The notes beneath the pieces were generated by a model. That model made no database searches. It was given only the letters and a program-made list of their open reading frames with translations, and had not been told where the DNA came from. From the IMG/VR virus record IMGVR_UViG_3300020213_000236, positions 1 through 36,867 of that record: a stretch of 36,867 nt of DNA; one strand, written 5' to 3'. The DNA comes from a virus. The position numbers and the translations under genes were made by a program. Each line of letters begins with the position of its first letter. The first letter of the stretch is position 1. This document shows positions 16,755-32,199 of the stretch, piece by piece.

Positions 16755-17795
16755 ATGAGCCTTGATACTATTATTGAAGTACAAATCGACAGACAGACTA
16801 CCGTGCCTTCACGAGCAGGTTTCGGGATTCCGCTGTTCATGGGACAGGCGCACAAATTAGCTGGCTTAGTCCAATCTTTCAGCTCTATGGAAGATGTGGA
16901 TGCAGTCTTCGATCCGACAGATGAAGAATATAAAGCAGCACTCAAACTTTTCGGACAAACATTCAAACCACCTACGATCAAAATCGGTGAGTGGGCAGCT
17001 CTAGACGCTGCGGATGTTGCTCTTGGAAAGATTCTTGTAGCTGACAGCGATTGGTATGGACTCTGTATGAGTTCTGCCGTCAAAGCAGACATCGAGTTAG
17101 TTGCTCCTCTTATCGAAGCACAAAGAAAAATTTTCATTGCGCGTTCAACCGACGACGCCATCTTCACTAGCGGCACAACAGATGTCGCATACGTGTTGAA
17201 GGCTGCAGGTTATGACCGCACAGCTCTTATCTGCAAAAAAGATGCAGTCACCGATTACCCGGATGCAGCTTGGCTTGGAGAAATGCTCCCACAAGATCCC
17301 GGATCGGCTACCTGGAAATTCAAAACCCTTAAAGGCGTAACGGTTGATAATATCACCGAAGCCGAAAAGGCTTTCGCGATTCGTAACGAAGCTGGCACCG
17401 GTAAGAATGCAAATACTTACTCGTCTGTCGGTGGAGTTGGAATCACTGAAGAGGGCTCTATGGCTTCTGGCGAATTCATCGATGTCATTCAAGGCGTCGA
17501 CTACATCACCGCTAGAATCAAAGAGCGAGTTTACTTCCGCATGGTCAATCTTCCGAAGATTCCTTACACCAACGCTGGTGTTGCAATCATCATAGCTGAG
17601 GTCAACGCGGTTCTTCAAAATGCAATCGCTATTGGGATTCTCCGCGACGATCCGGCTCCCATTATCTCGGCGCCTGACGTTCAGGACGTTGATCCTATTG
17701 ATCGTGGTAATCGATACCTGCCCGACGTGAAGTTCGAAGCTCAGTTGGCTGGCGCGATTCATAAAACCAAGATTCAAGGAACCGTAACGGTTTAA
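16755..17795 (+). CDS. contractile tail sheath protein (DUF3383-like)
   Basis: The 346-residue protein resembles the DUF3383 family, sheath proteins of contractile tails. Visible features are the N-terminal VPSRAGFGIPLFMG, the middle ALDAADVALGKILVAD, ERVYFRMVNLPKIPYTNAGV and a C-terminal GNRYLPDVKFEAQLAGAIHK segment, the interlocking end of sheath subunits. It is short compared with many sheaths, so it probably lacks an extra outer domain. AAAGGGGGGA lies before the ATG, a strong site fitting a high-copy protein. The tube gene follows. This gene and the tube indicate a myovirus-type tail. Confidence 0.87.
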   Translation: MSLDTIIEVQIDRQTTVPSRAGFGIPLFMGQAHKLAGLVQSFSSMEDVDAVFDPTDEEYKAALKLFGQTFKPPTIKIGEWAALDAADVALGKILVADSDWYGLCMSSAVKADIELVAPLIEAQRKIFIARSTDDAIFTSGTTDVAYVLKAAGYDRTALICKKDAVTDYPDAAWLGEMLPQDPGSATWKFKTLKGVTVDNITEAEKAFAIRNEAGTGKNANTYSSVGGVGITEEGSMASGEFIDVIQGVDYITARIKERVYFRMVNLPKIPYTNAGVAIIIAEVNAVLQNAIAIGILRDDPAPIISAPDVQDVDPIDRGNRYLPDVKFEAQLAGAIHKTKIQGTVTV

Positions 17796-17810: not shown

Positions 17811-18248
17811 ATGTTAAGAGAATACAACCCTAAAGAAGTTTCCATGATTGTCGCTGGTAATATTGTTACTGGTTACGCTGATGGAACATACCTAAGTGTC
17901 GAACGCAATAACCCTTCATTCAACCTTCAAATTGGTTCGGATGGAGAAGCTGTTCGCGCTAAATCCAATGACAAGAGCGGTCGAATCACGATCACTCTTC
18001 AATCTGGATCACCTATGAATGACATTCTGTCCGGACTCTGGAAAGCAGACGAACTAAACAGTGGCGGCGTATTCACTGTTTTAGTTAAGGACAATAACGG
18101 CGCATCGTTGCATTCGGCTGAAACAGCTTGGATCGTCCAAGTTGCGAACGCAGAGTACACACGAGAAGCAAGTAGCCGTGAATGGATCATTGAAACCGAC
18201 AATCTCGAATCGTTGGTTGGTGGGAATTTCGCAGCTTCGGCAGGATAA
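17811..18248 (+). CDS. tail tube protein (DUF3277-like)
   Basis: This 145-residue protein lies immediately after the sheath and resembles the DUF3277 phage structural family, which forms the inner tail tube. Features are VSMIVAGNIVTGYADGTYLS, then a beta-rich middle (GRITITLQSGSPMNDILSGL) and a C-terminal WIIETDNLESLVGGN. It is the normal size for a tube subunit. A GGAGGAGA ribosome site is present. Function follows from position and family. Confidence 0.85.
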   Translation: MLREYNPKEVSMIVAGNIVTGYADGTYLSVERNNPSFNLQIGSDGEAVRAKSNDKSGRITITLQSGSPMNDILSGLWKADELNSGGVFTVLVKDNNGASLHSAETAWIVQVANAEYTREASSREWIIETDNLESLVGGNFAASAG

Positions 18249-18255
18249 AAATTAA

Positions 18256-18720
18256 ATGAAGAATTTCGTTACGAAGACGGTCGACGGTGAGACGTACCAG
18301 ATCGAGCAATTCGCAACGACCAAGGCACTGAACGTCTTATCCGACTTGGTTAAGATTGTTGGCGAGCCTTTGGCTCTGGCGGTTAGCGGATCTACACTCT
18401 CAAGTGAAGAACAGTCTCGAATTCTGGGCATGGCGGTTTCAGCTATGGCTCAGCGCATGGATAAAAATACAGTCGTAGCACTGGTAAAAACTTTGATCGA
18501 AAGTTGTCTGAAGGGTGAGGGAGCGAAGATAAACTTCGAACTCGAATTCCAAGGCAAGCTCGGCCATCTGTTCAAACTTGTCTATGCGGTACTAGAGGTG
18601 CAATACGGCAGTTTTTTAGGAGAACTGCTCGGTCGCGCAGGCGAGCTAGCCAAGACCAAAGGCGTGAATCTGAGCAAGCAGTCGACTGGAGAATCTGGCG
18701 AATTATCTTCGGTCGCGTAG
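18256..18720 (+). CDS. tail assembly chaperone, short form (zero-frame product)
   Basis: This 154-residue helical protein is encoded between tube and tape measure, the standard place of tail assembly chaperones, which coat the tape-measure protein during tail assembly. The sequence (ATTKALNVLSDLVKIVGEPL, and a later hydrophobic helix LFKLVYAVLEVQYGSFLGEL) is typical of the first chaperone part. A T TTT TTA heptamer at 18612-18618 lies in the correct frame for a -1 shift. The ordinary product runs to the TAG at 18720; a fraction of ribosomes should make the longer fusion. Confidence 0.85.
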   Translation: MKNFVTKTVDGETYQIEQFATTKALNVLSDLVKIVGEPLALAVSGSTLSSEEQSRILGMAVSAMAQRMDKNTVVALVKTLIESCLKGEGAKINFELEFQGKLGHLFKLVYAVLEVQYGSFLGELLGRAGELAKTKGVNLSKQSTGESGELSSVA

Positions 18721-18842
18721 CAACGCTGCAGGAGATTGAGACACACTGGTCACTTGACGATCTCCTCGACGCTCATGAAGCCCTGGATGCGCGGGAGAAG
18801 GCGCAAGAAGAGGCTACTAAGAAGGCGAGGATGAAAAAGTGA
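18256..18842 (+). CDS. tail assembly chaperone, -1 frameshift fusion (long form)
   Basis: Reading 18256-18618 and then, after a -1 slip, 18618-18842 gives a 195-residue fusion. The -1 frame is open from just after a TGA near 18517 to the TGA at 18840-18842 and contains no ATG, GTG or TTG before the terminal ATG-AAA-AAG, so it cannot be expressed without a frameshift. Its C-terminal half (IIFGRVATLQEIETHWSLDD, LLDAHEALDAREKAQEEA) is typical of the second chaperone part in other phages. The stretch right after the slip is Arg-rich, so a different slip point nearby is possible. The stop overlaps the GTG of the tape measure gene. Confidence 0.75.
18612..18618 (+). promoter_or_regulatory. slippery heptamer T TTT TTA for -1 frameshifting
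   Basis: The zero-frame codons are AGT TTT TTA, so the heptamer has the exact X XXY YYZ phase. A candidate 5-bp hairpin (GCTCG 18627-18631, CGAGC 18642-18646) begins 8 nt downstream, a normal spacer for a stimulatory structure. Confidence 0.7.
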
Positions 18843-21682
18843 TAATCCGGGAACTGATAACTAAACTTGGGTTCGAAGTAGACGACTCCGGTCTGAATAA
18901 GGCTAATGTTGGTCTAGAAAATCTCAAGAAAAAACTTATTGGATTCTCGGTCGCTGTCGGCGGCATCACAGTCCTTGGAAAGATGGCGGCTGAGGCAGCG
19001 AAGCTTGAACAGGCTTTAGCCTCACTCGCTGAAGTATTCGAAGGCACCGACGCTAAGTTCAAAGAAGTCTCTGACGGCCTAAGAGCTAGAGCCGAGCAGA
19101 TGTCGACTTCGATGAATGTTTCATCCGAAGAGATTGCTAAAAATTTCGTTAATGTCATCGATGCAGGCGGTGCTTTAGGCACTAAGGCTTTCGATGAACT
19201 TTCTAATGCTAGTTTAAAGCTCGCCAAGGTCATGAGGATCGACACGGCGCAGTCGGTGGAGATTCTTGCCAACATCACCGAACAGCTCACGGGAAACCTT
19301 GAGAATGCGACTTATGTCTCTGACGGACTCGTTAGGGCGGGTCAGCTCGGAAGAACCTCTGCGACTCAAGTCGCGGCAGCTCTTTCAGTCGTTGGAGATA
19401 CGGCCCAATCGGCCAAGATTCCTTTTGAAGATCTCACAGCAGTCGTAGCCAAGCTCCAATCGACAGGTTTGACAGGTGCTAAGGCGGGTATGAAACTTCG
19501 CGGAGTACTACTCAATCTTTACGACTCCGCAGGGCCTGCTGCAAAAGCACTCGGAAACCTTGGCGTGAACGTATTCGATCAATCAGGAGAGGCTCGTCCA
19601 TTCCTTCAAGTCATTGAAGAGATTCAAGCCGCCCTAAGAACTCTAGGAACTCAAGAGAGAATCGATATCGAGAAAATGATCGGCGGCCCTGGTGGTGCTG
19701 ACACTCTCGCTAAATTATTCAGAGGCGGCACAAAAGGAATAAAAGACTGGTCGAAAGAGATCAAGAACTCTTCCGGAACTTTAGATAAGTCCTACGAAAG
19801 ATCGATGGCCACAGCCATTGAACAAGTCGGACGAATGACTAAAGGTCTAGGGAATCTCGTTAGTGCTATGGGGGAGCCTTTTCTAGCTCCCATCGCAAAA
19901 GCTGCGAGATATATGGCCGACCTCATAGAAAAGCTTCAGAAGTTTATCGAAGAAAATAAGGGAATCATCTCTCCCATTATGAGATTCGTTGGAGCGTTGC
20001 TCATTGTTGGAGCTGCTGTAACGGGATTTCAAATCGTCCTCGCACTTCTAAGAACAAATTTAATTAGATACATCGCCACGACTCTCATAGCTCAGGCAGT
20101 GACTCTCCTTTGGGTAGCCGCTGCAATACTCGCGATAGCTATCGTCATGGATTTAGTCGCCGCAATCGGAGGGTATCCTTCCGTAACTGGCGATGCTGTC
20201 GATGCTTTAGATAAATGGGTTCAGAAGCTCTATCAATCGAACTCCGCGATGGCCCCTTGGATCGCCGGGATCAAGGTTGGCTTAGAAGTGTTCGTCACTC
20301 TTAGCAGGCTCATTCTTGATGGCGTTAAGTATATGTCGATCTTTGCCGCGACTCTCGCGTCGATGGACTTCAAAGGATTCTTTGACGACATATTTAGTTT
20401 CAATTTCAAATCTGCGGCCGACAAGATCTCGAAGCCTTTTGAACTAGCAGGTAAGCAAATTGCAGACATCATGAAGGATAAGACTTCTGGCTATGCGAGC
20501 TACCAGAGGCTCCTATCAGGAAAGTCAGCCATCAATCCTGAAGGTGAAGAGGCTCGTGCTAAAAAAGACGAGGAAGAATTTCAAAAGAATCTTAGAAAGA
20601 TAAATGAAAGAGCGCAAAAAGATAGAATCGTCAGGACCACTTTCGAAGGCGAGCTGAGAGGAAAGAATCTCACAGACGATCAGAGTAAGAAATCGATGAG
20701 GCTTTTAGAAACTGGAGGCATGAAGTCTACAGACGGAATGGATTCTAAGAAGTTCAAAAAAGAATTCGGGTTAAGCCGGACTGAACTGCGAGAAGTATTT
20801 CAATCGGCCACTGACAAGTCTCTGAAACAGATCTCTGTGATGGAATCTTCTATGAAGCCTGGCGCAGAGCCTGATAAAATTGCTCTTCCAGAGAGAGCTG
20901 TAAATGCTGCAAAGGAAAAGACAGAGAAGCCTTCGCCTCAAGGAAGTCTTTCATTTAAAAAGCAAGACGCCACGGTCGATATAAACAGGGGAAACATATT
21001 CAACGACTTCCAAAAACTCCTAGGAGCTAGAGAGCAAAAGAATTCTGAAAAGATTCCTCAAGATATTCCGGAGATGATTAGGGCTCCAGAGGCTACTCGT
21101 ACGATTGAGAATTATACGACTAAGGTAACGTCTCTGGTTGATCAAGATCCTAGAAAGTTCTTAGCTCCTCAGCCATCTCCGATTGCTCCTAAAGAAAATT
21201 CACCGGCTCCACTAAAGAGCCCAATGCTTTTCAAAGAAACTTATCCACCTCCAACTAACGAGAAGCATTCAATGCTTGCTCCTGAGATTACTCAGACCTC
21301 AGAACAGCCTCGTAAGTTCGATAGCGGAAAAAATTACAGCATAGATCCTGAACAAGAGTCTGGAGTTCTATCCCGTCTGAAAAAATATTCAGACTTTGGA
21401 TCTCAACTGAAAGATACTCCGGCTGTCGATGAGTACAGCTCTGGCCTGAAAAGCTTCCAAGAAAAGACCACGCCGATGGATAGACCTGCGGCATCGACTA
21501 CAAATAATAATTATCGAACCTCGAACGTGAATCAACAGAACCAAATTCAAGTCAGCGTGAATATTCCTCCTGGAACTTCCCAAGCTGATGGGGCTGAAAT
21601 GGTTCAAAAAGGAATTCAAGAGGCTATGGAATCAGAAAGGAGACGGGCGTACTTAGATTTCGAGCCCGTGTTTGCACAATAA
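18839..21682 (+). CDS. tail tape measure protein
   Basis: This 947-residue protein is the longest of the tail-body genes. The N-terminal third matches the TP901-type tape measure pattern (KLEQALASLAEVFEGTD, MNVSSEEIAKNFVN, SAASLS-like helices). Hydrophobic segments at about 381-443 (ALLIVGAAVTGFQIVLALL and ILAIAIVMDLVAAIGG) may help DNA cross the inner membrane. The last 300 residues are polar and Pro/Ser/Lys-rich. Tape length sets tail length: at about 0.15 nm per residue this predicts a tail of about 140 nm. It starts with GTG in a GTGA overlap with the frameshift stop at 18842, which supports translation of that frame. Confidence 0.9.
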   Translation: MIIRELITKLGFEVDDSGLNKANVGLENLKKKLIGFSVAVGGITVLGKMAAEAAKLEQALASLAEVFEGTDAKFKEVSDGLRARAEQMSTSMNVSSEEIAKNFVNVIDAGGALGTKAFDELSNASLKLAKVMRIDTAQSVEILANITEQLTGNLENATYVSDGLVRAGQLGRTSATQVAAALSVVGDTAQSAKIPFEDLTAVVAKLQSTGLTGAKAGMKLRGVLLNLYDSAGPAAKALGNLGVNVFDQSGEARPFLQVIEEIQAALRTLGTQERIDIEKMIGGPGGADTLAKLFRGGTKGIKDWSKEIKNSSGTLDKSYERSMATAIEQVGRMTKGLGNLVSAMGEPFLAPIAKAARYMADLIEKLQKFIEENKGIISPIMRFVGALLIVGAAVTGFQIVLALLRTNLIRYIATTLIAQAVTLLWVAAAILAIAIVMDLVAAIGGYPSVTGDAVDALDKWVQKLYQSNSAMAPWIAGIKVGLEVFVTLSRLILDGVKYMSIFAATLASMDFKGFFDDIFSFNFKSAADKISKPFELAGKQIADIMKDKTSGYASYQRLLSGKSAINPEGEEARAKKDEEEFQKNLRKINERAQKDRIVRTTFEGELRGKNLTDDQSKKSMRLLETGGMKSTDGMDSKKFKKEFGLSRTELREVFQSATDKSLKQISVMESSMKPGAEPDKIALPERAVNAAKEKTEKPSPQGSLSFKKQDATVDINRGNIFNDFQKLLGAREQKNSEKIPQDIPEMIRAPEATRTIENYTTKVTSLVDQDPRKFLAPQPSPIAPKENSPAPLKSPMLFKETYPPPTNEKHSMLAPEITQTSEQPRKFDSGKNYSIDPEQESGVLSRLKKYSDFGSQLKDTPAVDEYSSGLKSFQEKTTPMDRPAASTTNNNYRTSNVNQQNQIQVSVNIPPGTSQADGAEMVQKGIQEAMESERRRAYLDFEPVFAQ

Positions 21683-22798: not shown

Positions 22799-23755
22799 TT
22801 GAGTAAGCTCTTCGGAAGATCATGCAGCGTCCTTTTCACAGCCACTTCTAGGGCTGGAACTGAAGAGAGATTCTTTGACGGAACGACTGCCGCTGCACTT
22901 TCTCAAGAGCCCACTCGTGGGAATCTTCGCGAGACTTTCAGAATTGCTTTCAATGTGGAACTAACGAGCGAGAAGAATGCTAACGCCTGCTCAGTTTCGA
23001 TCTACAATTTGAATAGATCTTCGAGATCATTCTTAGAGCTTGAGAGGCGACCTAGATTATCGACTAACAAGACCATAAGACCTCTTACTTTGACTTTAAA
23101 GGCCGGCCTCGGACCTAATCCAGAGATTCTGTTTCAGGGTCAGATTGATGGAGAGAAAACCCGTACTGAAAAAAGTGGGCCTGATGTCATCACGACGGTC
23201 GAATGCGGCGATGGAAGGTTTGCTCTTAGGAACACGGTTATAAACAAAACCTTCGCCCCTGGAGTCAGTCTAGAGCAGGCCATAGAGCACATTCGAGATC
23301 AGCTAGGAGTTGGAAAGTCAGGGAATGGGAATAATTGGCTAGGGATTACGAAGGAAACCTTCTCGCAAGGGCTTACGATGTCCGGCTCGGCGCCTGAAAT
23401 TTTAGATCAGCTCGCTACGAAGCAGGATCTCGACTGGTCGATTCAAGACAATAAGCTTCAAATCAAGCCGAAGGGTCAGCCTATAAAGCTACCCACGTTG
23501 ATCATATCGCCCGACACTGGGCTTTTATCGATCCCCAAGAGGACAAACTATGGAGTCGAATTTTCGATCCTCCTAGACCCCGCTATTCGTCCGGGGAGGC
23601 CTGTTGAGGTTCAGTCGATGTATTTGAATCAAGACCGTGGTTCGAACTATTTCATCGTCAAAAGGGTGCAGACTCAGGGTGATAATTTCACCGGCGCCTG
23701 GGCTTCGACCGTTCAAGCCTCAAATCCAAATACAAATATTAAGGTGTTCAAGTGA
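22799..23755 (+). CDS. baseplate hub protein
   Basis: The 318-residue protein fits the hub fold family of simple contractile tails: an N-terminal beta domain (FRIAFNVELTSEKNANACSV, then SIYNLNRSSRSFLE), a middle EILFQGQIDGEKT strand typical of hub proteins, and a C-terminal domain containing TGLLSIPKRTNYGVEFSILL and RPGRPVEVQS. The start is TTG right after the previous TAA, with GGAGG upstream in the previous gene. Its stop overlaps the next GTG. It probably forms the trimeric hub to which the spike binds. Confidence 0.82.
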   Translation: MSKLFGRSCSVLFTATSRAGTEERFFDGTTAAALSQEPTRGNLRETFRIAFNVELTSEKNANACSVSIYNLNRSSRSFLELERRPRLSTNKTIRPLTLTLKAGLGPNPEILFQGQIDGEKTRTEKSGPDVITTVECGDGRFALRNTVINKTFAPGVSLEQAIEHIRDQLGVGKSGNGNNWLGITKETFSQGLTMSGSAPEILDQLATKQDLDWSIQDNKLQIKPKGQPIKLPTLIISPDTGLLSIPKRTNYGVEFSILLDPAIRPGRPVEVQSMYLNQDRGSNYFIVKRVQTQGDNFTGAWASTVQASNPNTNIKVFK

Positions 23756-24399
23756 ATCAAGAAGGCGAAACACCGACACTTCAGGCAGTTATTCAGGTCG
23801 CTCTTGAGAGATACTCTCATAATCTGCATACCTGTATGCCTGCCTCGATTGTCAAATACGACCGGACGAAGCAAATCGCTACCGTCCAGCCGCTCCTTCA
23901 AAGAAAGACTAGGGATGGAGTCGTCCTGACCTATCAGGTGATTCAAAATGTCCCGTGTATCTTTCCTCGAACAGCGACCTTCGGAATGACATACGAACTG
24001 AAGCCAAAAGATACTGGCCTCCTCGTCTTCTCAGAGAGATCCCTTGATAAGTGGTTAGCCTCAAAAGGCGAGGTCATGGATCCAAAAGATCCTCGGAAGT
24101 TCGATATCTCTGACGCCATTTTCATTCCTGGGCTCTTTCCTAACTCGAAGCCGGCCTATACCGAGAAAGACATCACGATTCTTAAGAATGCGCAGACTAG
24201 ATTCCGAATGTATGAGACTGGGAAGATGGCTTTTACGAACCTAGCCTCCGGCGAGGAGCTTATTAAAATCATTCACGACCTTTTGATCGTGCTAGAAAAT
24301 GCGCTCATTCGTACGGCGATTGGGCCTCAACCATTTGTTCCGAATACGATTCAGGAACTAACATCAATCCAAACTAGATTGGATACCCTTTTGGAGTAA
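23752..24399 (+). CDS. baseplate spike protein, Gp138 N-terminal type
   Basis: The 215-residue protein has an N-terminal OB-fold-like region of the Gp138 type: LHTCMPASIVKYDRTKQIAT followed by VQPLLQ, and later MTYELKPKDTGLLVFSERSL. Such proteins form the membrane-piercing spike under the hub. The C-terminal part (IKIIHDLLIVLENALIRTAI) is helical and may hold the trimer. It starts with GTG in a GTGA overlap. The spike tip is short; no metal-binding HxH tip motif is seen. Confidence 0.82.
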   Translation: MNQEGETPTLQAVIQVALERYSHNLHTCMPASIVKYDRTKQIATVQPLLQRKTRDGVVLTYQVIQNVPCIFPRTATFGMTYELKPKDTGLLVFSERSLDKWLASKGEVMDPKDPRKFDISDAIFIPGLFPNSKPAYTEKDITILKNAQTRFRMYETGKMAFTNLASGEELIKIIHDLLIVLENALIRTAIGPQPFVPNTIQELTSIQTRLDTLLE

Positions 24400-28149: not shown

Positions 28150-31100
28150 ATGATGAAAAAACTACTCTCAACAATTTCTATAATCGGACTGGTTACTACG
28201 GGCGTTCTTTTAGCCGCTGGCAGCTCCGACAATGATTACAAGATAGGGACGGCAAGTTCCTCGGCAAACAAGACAGTCACTTTTGATACAGGGGATACGA
28301 GTAATAATCCGAACATCATGGTGAATGATGGGCGGGATATTAGTTTCATCAACAACCAAAGCACTAAATTTAAAATAGGGAATGGTGGGGACTTAACTCT
28401 TGGTGGAACAACGGACACATCAAATACCCATACGATGTACGGACGAAAGTTTAATTTCGTCTGGAACTCTGCCTCTGGCGGAGAAGAGGTGTCGTTCGTC
28501 AACTCAAACACTGGTGGCAACGCTACTGCGAGAATAATTCTTCAAACTAGTAACTCTGCAACGGCTGCGTCTGATCCATTCATCACATTTATTACAAATG
28601 GTAGTTCAAATGGGTTCTTCGCAATGGGGATTGATAACGATGATTCCGATAATTTCAAGATCAATTATGGAACGACTTCTATCTCTGGAAATACTCAAAT
28701 AGCTCTAGGAATAAGCCCATCGACTGGAAGTGTTTCTCTTCCGCTCCCACTCACTGTTGGTGGAACAGGATCAACTCCATTTTTTCAAAGTGCTGCCGCT
28801 ATTAGGCTCTATGACAACCAGACTTTGACTGGGGCTGCTCAGTACGGATTGCTTAACACCGCAACATTCACGACCGCAGCGACTACGTCGATGATAGGCG
28901 TCTATTCGCAAGTCCAGTCTTCCGCTGGTTCCTACACGACCCCGATAAATGCAAACTTCTATGCCTGGGCAATGGCCAAAGGGGCTTCTCACGTAATGAC
29001 GAGATCCATCAATTACATGGGGGACAATCAAACAGTTGCAACTAACAACTGTTTCATGTGTGACGGAACTGCATTTTCTGGGGACTGGGGAATCAACCTA
29101 CAAACTTCGCGGGCAAATTATCTAGGCGGAAGTCTTACGGTTGGTGGAGCGATTGTCGCTGGATCTTTTAGTTTCGGAGGTAACGATTTCAAAGTTAACG
29201 CGGGAGCTACTGCCGCTCAGAACGGAAGCTTTGCCCAAGGTGCGAATACCGGATCTGTCACCTTCTCAGGAGGCACAGGAGTCGACTCAGCTAGAAATAT
29301 TCAAGCCTATGGTGGATCTCATGCTACGAAGGCGATGTACTTAGAGTTCAAAAGAAACTCTACAATCGATGGTCAGGTAGATGGATCTGGAGCTTGGCAG
29401 ATTGGTTCTTCAGGAAGCGGCTCTACACAAACAATTCACGGTGCCCTTTCTGTAAACCCAGCCGGAAACATCGCACTTCTTCACACGATTAAAGGCCGAT
29501 TCCTAACTTTGGATTACGATGCAGGCGGAGCAAACTCAAGCGGCCTCATTCTTAACAATGACGATGCATCTTCTGCTGCTACTAGCTTTGCACAGATTAT
29601 TTCTAATGGTGGCGATGCAGGTGTTCACGTTAACGACGACGCTGGCGCTGGTACTGGATTCGTATTCGGAAAAGATTCTACATCTAATAATTTAGTTATA
29701 GGCCCAGGCACTTTCCCTATCGGATCTTCAAATACGATAACTATGGGGACTGGTGGACAGCTTACGATGGGATCAAACCAGGCGTTCGTCATTGAAACAT
29801 CACCTGGACCATCATCAGGATTCGCCTATATCCGAAGTAACAACGGCGGGCTAAACAGGTTTCTCATTGAGAACTCCAGTAACACGGCTTCGTCTGACGC
29901 GAATATAATTATAAATTCAGGCGGATCCTCTGCGGGCGATCCATATCTTACTTTCCAAGTCATAGGTGCGCAGCAGTTTGCGATAGGAATTGATAATTCT
30001 GATTCCGATAAATTTAAAATATCACAGAGTAGCGTTCTTGGAACTAGCGACGCGCTAGCAATAGGCTCCGGTGGGGAGTTCACTATAGGTAGTCCGACTT
30101 TCGCGAATCAACCCAACGTCATCAAAGGCCCTAACGCGAACGTCACTTCTACTGGCCTATCTCTTGATTGTGGTAGCGCTGCTTGTGCGACCGCTATTCA
30201 TGGGGCGAGAAACGACGGGGTTATGTATATCGGGGCGAACGCCGGAGTAAGCAGCGGCCCCTTGTTAACCCTATACGGGTCCACTAATGCTAGTTTGCCT
30301 AATGTAGCTAAGCTGTCTTCTGGAGGGGCTAACGTCAGCTCTATCATTATGTTCACGAGTGCGGCAGGCGCAAACATCGCTCTAGGTGGAGGCGTTGAGC
30401 TTACCGATACAAGGGTACATGCTTACGGCGACAACACTGGAAATACGAACGCCGCCCAAAAGATATTCAGAGTTTACGGGAATGGTTGGGGTACGTCTTC
30501 TGCTACGTCAGCCCTGACTATGCTATATATTGATGGCTCAACCAACAGCGCCCCCACATTTACAACGGCTTATTATTCCGGAATCACGCTTAAAGCTCTG
30601 ACCAAGGGAACTAACCACACAATCACGGACTTGGTGGGACTCGCGGTTGAAGACCAGACTGAAACCGTAACACGCTTTAAAGCAAACTTTTCAATCGGTA
30701 ATAACGGCTCAAGCCCTGGATCGCCCGGAGCTGCTGAGTCAGGTCCGTATAACATTTACGTCCAGCCTAATAAGCCAAGCTTCTTTAATGGAAGTCTGCG
30801 CGTAGGCCCGACCTCAACTGGAGCGGGCTCTACCTATCCGAACTCTTTCATCCGCAACAGCGCGACCGAAGGGGCTTTGTATGTGGGTCAGGATAACACT
30901 GGAGCTTCCAGTCAGTCACTTGTGGTGGTTACCGCCGCTACGACCGGATCAGGGAACGCTTTTTCTGTTTTCAATAATAACGGTGGATCTAACGCTGACA
31001 GAATTCTTTATGTTGCGAACGACGCTACGATCTTTCTTGGGAAGACTAATGCTACGGCTCACGTTCTTACTTATGGAACGCATACGGCTAGCGGAAACTT

Positions 31101-32199
31101 CTATGCAGGAACTGTAGCGACATCATCTGCCAACGCTATTTTTAGAGGCGGTGATACGGCCGTAACATCTGGTGGATCTCAATTCGGATTCGTCGACACG
31201 CATGTATTCTCAAGCTCTGCGACAACTAGCATCTATGGATACGCTGCTATTTTCGCAACTCAAAATGCGGCCTTCACGACACCAGTTGTTTACGACTTCT
31301 TTGCGGAAACTCCTACCAAGGGGGCTTCGCATACTGTGACGAGATTTGCGAATTACGGCGGTACGGTCAGCTCCACTGGCGTCAACAATGCTTTTTTGAC
31401 AGACAACGCTTCGTATAGTTCGGACTGGATGATAAATTTTACATCGAACAGGCCGTCACTTTTTTCGGGTGACCTCACTCTCGCTGCTAGAAACTTCAAC
31501 CATCAAAAGAGCGATTCAGGAAACCTGGTTTACCATAGCGTAGCCAACCTCAGTAACACGGCAAGCTCTGGAGCCATGATCTTAGTCGGAACTGCGGGTT
31601 CGTCTGCAGGAAGCCCAGTGGTTCGTTACGAAATATCTGGCGTTCAAAACTGGGTCCAAGGCGTTGATAATGCAGATTCCGATAAATATAAAATCGTCGA
31701 AGGCACAGACATAGCAGTTGGGGCGAATACTAAGATTCAATGTACGACTGGTGGAGCTGGTCATTGCGAATCTAAGGGATCTGCTGGAACAACCGATGCT
31801 ACCGCAGGCTATTTAGGCGAAGCTGCTCGCTCTGCTGTTACGACACTTACGAACTTCACAGGAACAGCCACGTGGAAAGATTGTACAAGCATTTCTCTTG
31901 CGGCTGGTGACTGGGATGTAAATGGTGTTGGCCAGTTTGCTCTTAGTGGCGCAACTGCTTCTGGAACTTACCAAGCTGCTGTATCTGTGAACTCAGGGAC
32001 AACGACTACAGATCATGTGGATGGCGACAACGTGAATAGCGGAACTCGACCTACAGCAACCGAAAGAGCCACTCAGGTTATTCCTGGATACAGAATTAAA
32101 GTATCCTCAACGACCACTGTTTATATGAAAGTTTTTGCTACCTATTCTGCTGGAACTCCGCAGTACGTCTGCAGAATTAGCGCACGAAGGGTTCGGTAG
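28150..32199 (+). CDS. giant fibre-like protein with apparent signal peptide and internal repeats
   Basis: This is the largest gene of the window, 1349 residues. It is composed of Gly/Ser/Thr/Asn-rich beta repeats as in long tail fibres. Three copies of GIDN-type blocks (residues about 160, 613 and 1171, each ending DSDNFKI, DSDKFKI or DSDKYKI) and three related longer blocks containing KGASH or KGTNH followed by TR (about 216-330, 790-890 and 994-1105) show internal duplication. The C-terminal 120 residues (CTSISLAAGDWDVNGVGQFA) resemble fibre tip domains. Oddly it starts MMKKLLSTISIIGLVTTGVL, with a basic end and hydrophobic core like a Sec signal peptide. TAGGAG lies 6 nt before the ATG. 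Confidence 0.75.
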   Translation: MMKKLLSTISIIGLVTTGVLLAAGSSDNDYKIGTASSSANKTVTFDTGDTSNNPNIMVNDGRDISFINNQSTKFKIGNGGDLTLGGTTDTSNTHTMYGRKFNFVWNSASGGEEVSFVNSNTGGNATARIILQTSNSATAASDPFITFITNGSSNGFFAMGIDNDDSDNFKINYGTTSISGNTQIALGISPSTGSVSLPLPLTVGGTGSTPFFQSAAAIRLYDNQTLTGAAQYGLLNTATFTTAATTSMIGVYSQVQSSAGSYTTPINANFYAWAMAKGASHVMTRSINYMGDNQTVATNNCFMCDGTAFSGDWGINLQTSRANYLGGSLTVGGAIVAGSFSFGGNDFKVNAGATAAQNGSFAQGANTGSVTFSGGTGVDSARNIQAYGGSHATKAMYLEFKRNSTIDGQVDGSGAWQIGSSGSGSTQTIHGALSVNPAGNIALLHTIKGRFLTLDYDAGGANSSGLILNNDDASSAATSFAQIISNGGDAGVHVNDDAGAGTGFVFGKDSTSNNLVIGPGTFPIGSSNTITMGTGGQLTMGSNQAFVIETSPGPSSGFAYIRSNNGGLNRFLIENSSNTASSDANIIINSGGSSAGDPYLTFQVIGAQQFAIGIDNSDSDKFKISQSSVLGTSDALAIGSGGEFTIGSPTFANQPNVIKGPNANVTSTGLSLDCGSAACATAIHGARNDGVMYIGANAGVSSGPLLTLYGSTNASLPNVAKLSSGGANVSSIIMFTSAAGANIALGGGVELTDTRVHAYGDNTGNTNAAQKIFRVYGNGWGTSSATSALTMLYIDGSTNSAPTFTTAYYSGITLKALTKGTNHTITDLVGLAVEDQTETVTRFKANFSIGNNGSSPGSPGAAESGPYNIYVQPNKPSFFNGSLRVGPTSTGAGSTYPNSFIRNSATEGALYVGQDNTGASSQSLVVVTAATTGSGNAFSVFNNNGGSNADRILYVANDATIFLGKTNATAHVLTYGTHTASGNFYAGTVATSSANAIFRGGDTAVTSGGSQFGFVDTHVFSSSATTSIYGYAAIFATQNAAFTTPVVYDFFAETPTKGASHTVTRFANYGGTVSSTGVNNAFLTDNASYSSDWMINFTSNRPSLFSGDLTLAARNFNHQKSDSGNLVYHSVANLSNTASSGAMILVGTAGSSAGSPVVRYEISGVQNWVQGVDNADSDKYKIVEGTDIAVGANTKIQCTTGGAGHCESKGSAGTTDATAGYLGEAARSAVTTLTNFTGTATWKDCTSISLAAGDWDVNGVGQFALSGATASGTYQAAVSVNSGTTTTDHVDGDNVNSGTRPTATERATQVIPGYRIKVSSTTTVYMKVFATYSAGTPQYVCRISARRVR

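Follow-up and report, generated by a model that had tools for sequence, protein, structure and literature searches.

The window analysed here, the full 36,867 bases of record IMGVR_UViG_3300020213_000236, comes from an uncultivated virus whose genes are ordered as in contractile-tailed phages. Sequence comparison makes it almost certain that programmed -1 ribosomal frameshifting supplies this virus with a tail assembly chaperone of the G/GT type. As shown in Table 1, the chaperone comprises a short form, G, and a C-terminal part, T, that is read in the -1 frame. T lies in the -1 frame relative to G in all 102 distinct related loci (102/102), and both the position and the nucleotides of the slippery heptamer are conserved, which makes the frameshift reading very strong; the same comparison shows the -1 frame to encode a real protein. 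The window is a further case of the known G/GT frameshift chaperones, a mechanism already proposed for the related Vandenendeviridae.

The genes of the window run in the order neck/terminator, sheath, tube-like protein, tail assembly chaperone, tape measure and baseplate, with the chaperone gene between the tail tube/sheath and tape measure genes, the placement typical of G/GT. Two proteins further downstream in the tail region, of 1349 aa (28150-32199) and 215 aa (23752-24399), had no PHROG match at E 1e-3, and an Rfam search of 18400-19000 matched no family.

Table 1. Features of the tail chaperone region in window coordinates.
Feature	Position	Strand	Evidence
Tail sheath (contractile tail)	16755..17795	+	phrog_205 E 5.8e-96
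Virion structural (tube-like) protein, just 5' of G	17811..18248	+	phrog_280 E 9.2e-38; PF11681 KPP10_Orf10
G, tail assembly chaperone, short form, 154 aa	18256..18720	+	PF21822, phrog_1613, AlphaFold model
SD-like GAGGTG, 11 nt 5' of heptamer; candidate 5' stimulator	18595..18600	+	anti-SD energy -7.1 kcal/mol
Slippery heptamer T TTT TTA, -1 phase	18612..18618	+	direct reading; homologous position conserved
T, C-terminal part in -1 frame: Arg-rich linker and three-helix domain	18612..18842	+	phrog_4625, phrog_4364
Candidate stem-loop, 7 nt 3' of heptamer	~18626..18676	+	window z -1.05; family mean z about -1.07
Tape measure protein; GTG start overlaps -1 stop	18839..21682	+	PF10145 E 3.5e-27; phrog_28 E 3.8e-46

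G matches the Phage_TAC_15 family over residues 10-126 with 69.6 bits against a curated cut-off of 22, and phrog_1613 with E 1.8e-23. Its AlphaFold model (pLDDT 88) matches viral tail chaperone models in BFVD, many at E < 1e-3. A profile search of solved structures gave weak matches only, and the top PDB match of the model, 5ir0, has a probability of 0.98 but a weak E of 0.13. This structure is the ORF19 protein of PLE1, a V. cholerae satellite, and a 2026 paper identifies it as the tail assembly chaperone of PLE1, similar to that of HK97 (PMC12987554). The weak match hints at a chaperone fold common to satellite and phage.

Relatives of the window were gathered from IMG/VR using the upstream structural protein, then alignments, and the -1 part, giving more than 120 loci, while searches of IMG/VR with G and the tape measure as single proteins found no relatives. 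The set was extended by seven GenBank phages and a single bacterial MAG locus, and removal of duplicates left the 102 distinct loci carrying both G and T; these are of common ancestry, so that counts among them are not counts of independent events. The members nevertheless show low identity to one another (20-52% to the window). The comparison with homologous phages that the initial annotation had called for revealed slippery sites at the same place and a conserved -1 frame.

Direct reading confirmed a -1 frame that stays open over 18519-18842. Its sole ATG, GTG or TTG is an ATG at 18831, among the last codons, and its TGA stop (18840-18842) overlaps the tape-measure GTG (18839-18841), in line with the initial annotation. 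The -1 part matches phrog_4625 (E 8e-5) and phrog_4364 (E 1.1e-4), which are small phage families of unassigned function; tblastn with T alone against GenBank phages gave no matches. Among the closest relatives T is as conserved as G, and substitutions in the T-only region of 29 pairs fall on the three codon positions as 417/285/782. By this measure T is under purifying selection and evolves as a real protein. A 26-member alignment of T begins with FF.R after the slip, continues through a variable Arg-rich linker and then reaches W..WR and a conserved domain. In the model of T, the first 25 residues have no regular structure and are followed by three helices (residues 26-75).

We considered whether T might instead be a separate small protein, as in the annotation of most public records, begun at a start of its own in the -1 frame or by re-initiation once G has ended. 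Two genes are indeed listed for most of the GenBank relatives examined, but this reading is very improbable given the lack of an early start in the window. A start codon for T was also looked for in the relatives, and none was found that explains its conserved beginning. Within the first 25 post-slip codons a start is present in the -1 frame of 6 of 76 loci, compared with 42 in the zero frame and 19 in the third, and where a -1 stop lies 30 nt or less before the slip (25 loci) the first start is mostly at or past the beginning of W..WR.

The frameshift reading places the slip at T TTT TTA, for which the initial annotation had claimed exact -1 phase; the zero-frame codons AGT TTT TTA bear this out, and 18256-18850 contains no other X XXY YYZ heptamer, whichever phase is read. 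Across the family, 91 of the 102 loci have an in-phase heptamer inside the G/T overlap, the other two phases giving 20 and 29, and shuffles of the zero-frame codons giving a mean of 27.8 and a maximum of 36 of 102 loci. The heptamer exceeds chance once relatives are included. At the homologous codon T TTT TTN occurs in 70 loci and C CCT TTN in 6 (76 of 102 together). The lambda heptamer, G GGA AAG, stands at the homologous place in L078, L087 and L098, A AAT TTT in L032, L105 and L131, and A AAT TTC in L025; some other loci have further heptamer types at this codon. The Pseudomonas phages of the set carry GTT TTT here, which allows only T_TTT re-pairing. Roughly a quarter of the loci have neither T TTT TTN nor C CCT TTN, and some have no X XXY YYZ at all.

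Alignment of the 102 G proteins allowed codon use at the slip to be set against that elsewhere in the same genes. Asp is encoded by GAT in 52 cases and GAC in 1 (350:472 elsewhere), Asn by AAT in 20 and AAC in none (154:193), and Phe by TTT in 79 and TTC in 2 (332:388). On this evidence conservation of the slip codons extends to the nucleotides, beyond amino-acid needs. We observed separately that overlaps with no X XXY YYZ can carry T_TTT at the homologous codon (e.g. ACT TTT G, GAC GTT TTT T), as in L117:3427-3936, L127:3420-3920, L129:3431-3916, L043:2456-2947, L044:2606-3118 and L119:845-1345, and these are possible single-tRNA slip sites.

A frame change made in transcription, with RNA polymerase and not the ribosome slipping on the T-run, is as improbable as a separately begun T. 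Runs of seven to eight T, as found in L004, L048, L064 and L084, would suit it, but the window run has six T only and the homologous C CCT TTA, A AAT TTC and G GGA AAG contain no long homopolymer. Conservation in the ribosomal -1 phase and an SD-like element at ribosomal spacing also speak against it.

The initial annotation suggested that the Arg-rich stretch just after the slip left room for a different slip point. This did not hold up, since FF.R and the variable Arg-rich linker are kept in the 26-member alignment, making the stretch a family linker; FF.R.RR recurs across the family immediately behind the slip, and the overlaps of L030 and L004 are just 31 and 34 nt long and hold the homologous T-run. 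A real shift elsewhere in the 18519-18720 overlap, closer to the ordered T domain, is the least probable reading: it would accommodate some 20 variable, Arg-rich residues after the slip and a domain ordered from residue 26, but it is opposed by these traits, by the lack of a second heptamer and by the nucleotide-level conservation of the slip codons.

To the elements of the initial annotation the present analysis adds the Shine-Dalgarno (SD)-like GAGGTG. Anti-Shine-Dalgarno pairing across the family peaks 10-13 nt 5' of the heptamer, where the family mean energy is -5.22 kcal/mol, versus -3.33 in synonymous shuffles, which permute codons among synonymous positions within the same gene (standard deviation of the shuffle means 0.23). 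At the SD-like site Glu is encoded by GAG in 32 cases and GAA in 2, compared with 322:284 elsewhere. Scored by the criterion of Sharma 2014 (PMC4066793), with the element 6-17 nt before the motif, an SD-like element is present in 44 of 71 non-redundant loci, versus 26.6 (maximum 34) in the shuffles; the window qualifies with GAGG and AGGTG. By this codon evidence the SD-like element is more strongly conserved than the encoded amino acids demand.

Downstream of the heptamer, the 5-bp hairpin GCTCG/CGAGC (18627-18631 / 18642-18646) described in the initial annotation is indeed present, 8 nt after the heptamer, but does not rise above chance. Folding the sequence after the heptamer gives as minimum-energy structure a different, longer hairpin (-20.8 kcal/mol), listed in Table 1 as the candidate stem-loop. 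In the window alone this hairpin is not significant, as 34 of 200 shuffles fold equally well. We therefore do not count the simple 5-bp hairpin as evidence by itself. Over the family the mean z is -1.07 at offset 7 and -1.04 at offset 12, and -0.26 to 0.01 at other offsets. Downstream structure is above shuffles on the family average, and is local to just after the heptamer.

These data allow us to propose how the two forms would be made. Most ribosomes would read G through to its stop at 18720, while a minority would pause at T TTT TTA, with TTT in the P site and TTA in the A site; both tRNAs would slip back by one base and pair anew with TTT TTT. Reading would then resume at AGG (18618) and end at 18842, so that the GT fusion would have about 195 aa. 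GAGGTG probably pairs with the 16S rRNA of the elongating ribosome, and this pairing and the downstream structure would raise slippage in the manner of dnaX and IS911. By analogy with lambda (PMC5009743), the tape measure protein would be coated by many copies of G and few of GT, with the T part recruiting tail tube subunits. We infer, as a matter of slippage efficiency, that GT is the minor product; likewise that the SD-like element and the downstream structure act as stimulators and, from the lambda analogy, that G binds the tape measure and T the tube protein. A point against the frameshift reading is that U_UUU_UUA shifts less readily than A_AAA_AAG in E. coli (PMC5009743).

We somewhat favour a wider reading, in which the address of the frameshift site is fixed and its heptamer changes, accompanied by an SD-like element 10-13 nt upstream that is under synonymous selection and serves as a dnaX-like stimulator. 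In this reading the heptamers at this address differ by lineage, being T TTT TTN, C CCT TTN, A AAT TTT, G GGA AAG or a lone T_TTT. If the wider reading is true, phage tail chaperones would have a conserved three-part signal. In dnaX and IS911 the signal likewise consists of an SD-like element, a heptamer and a stem-loop downstream (5-8 nt) (PMC4066793, PMC5009743). The layout in the window resembles this one, with a candidate stem-loop that is not significant by itself (z -1.05), but heptamer and gene differ, and the stimulators are candidates only.

Frameshifted lambda G/GT chaperones are described as classical and as conserved in dsDNA phages (Levin 1993; Xu, Hendrix and Duda 2004; PMC5009743). 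The window resembles lambda in the tube-to-tape-measure position, the -1 shift near the end of G, the start-less T frame and the fusion product. It differs from lambda in having T TTT TTA in place of G GGA AAG, which three relatives do carry, and in a G that belongs to Phage_TAC_15 with an SD-like element upstream. A 2025 paper on the Pakpunavirus Adele argued that Vandenendeviridae chaperones conserve a -1 frameshift with the motif GTTTTT, which it also reported from Andersonviridae (PMC12846349). These families share with the window a homologous G (same Pfam family), a -1 shift at the homologous codon and a T that is routinely mis-annotated as a separate gene, but their GTTTTT permits T_TTT re-pairing only, whereas the window has the full T TTT TTA. 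Vequintavirus and Seunavirus (rV5-like) phages likewise have a homologous G, with T TTT TTC at the same codon, but their T is unrecognised by the T profile built here and they are annotated with two genes.

Otagovirus M5.1 (L009) is the only one of the GenBank relatives examined in which a joined gene is annotated. In six others (L006, L007, L008, L010, L011, L012) T has a gene entry of its own, labelled hypothetical, and two-gene records span Vequintavirus, Seunavirus, Nankokuvirus, Otagovirus and Pakpunavirus. What stands in this group as a second gene for a separate 'hypothetical protein' is very probably the C-terminal half of a fusion, and many phage records therefore need re-annotation. 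The set of about 100 loci also offers a natural series on how the slippery site and the 5' stimulator set the G:GT ratio, and on tail assembly. The G/T locus L134 (PMZX01000011.1), which has C CCT TTA, lies on a contig assigned to a Myxococcales MAG, and from it Myxococcales are a possible host lineage for part of the phage group.
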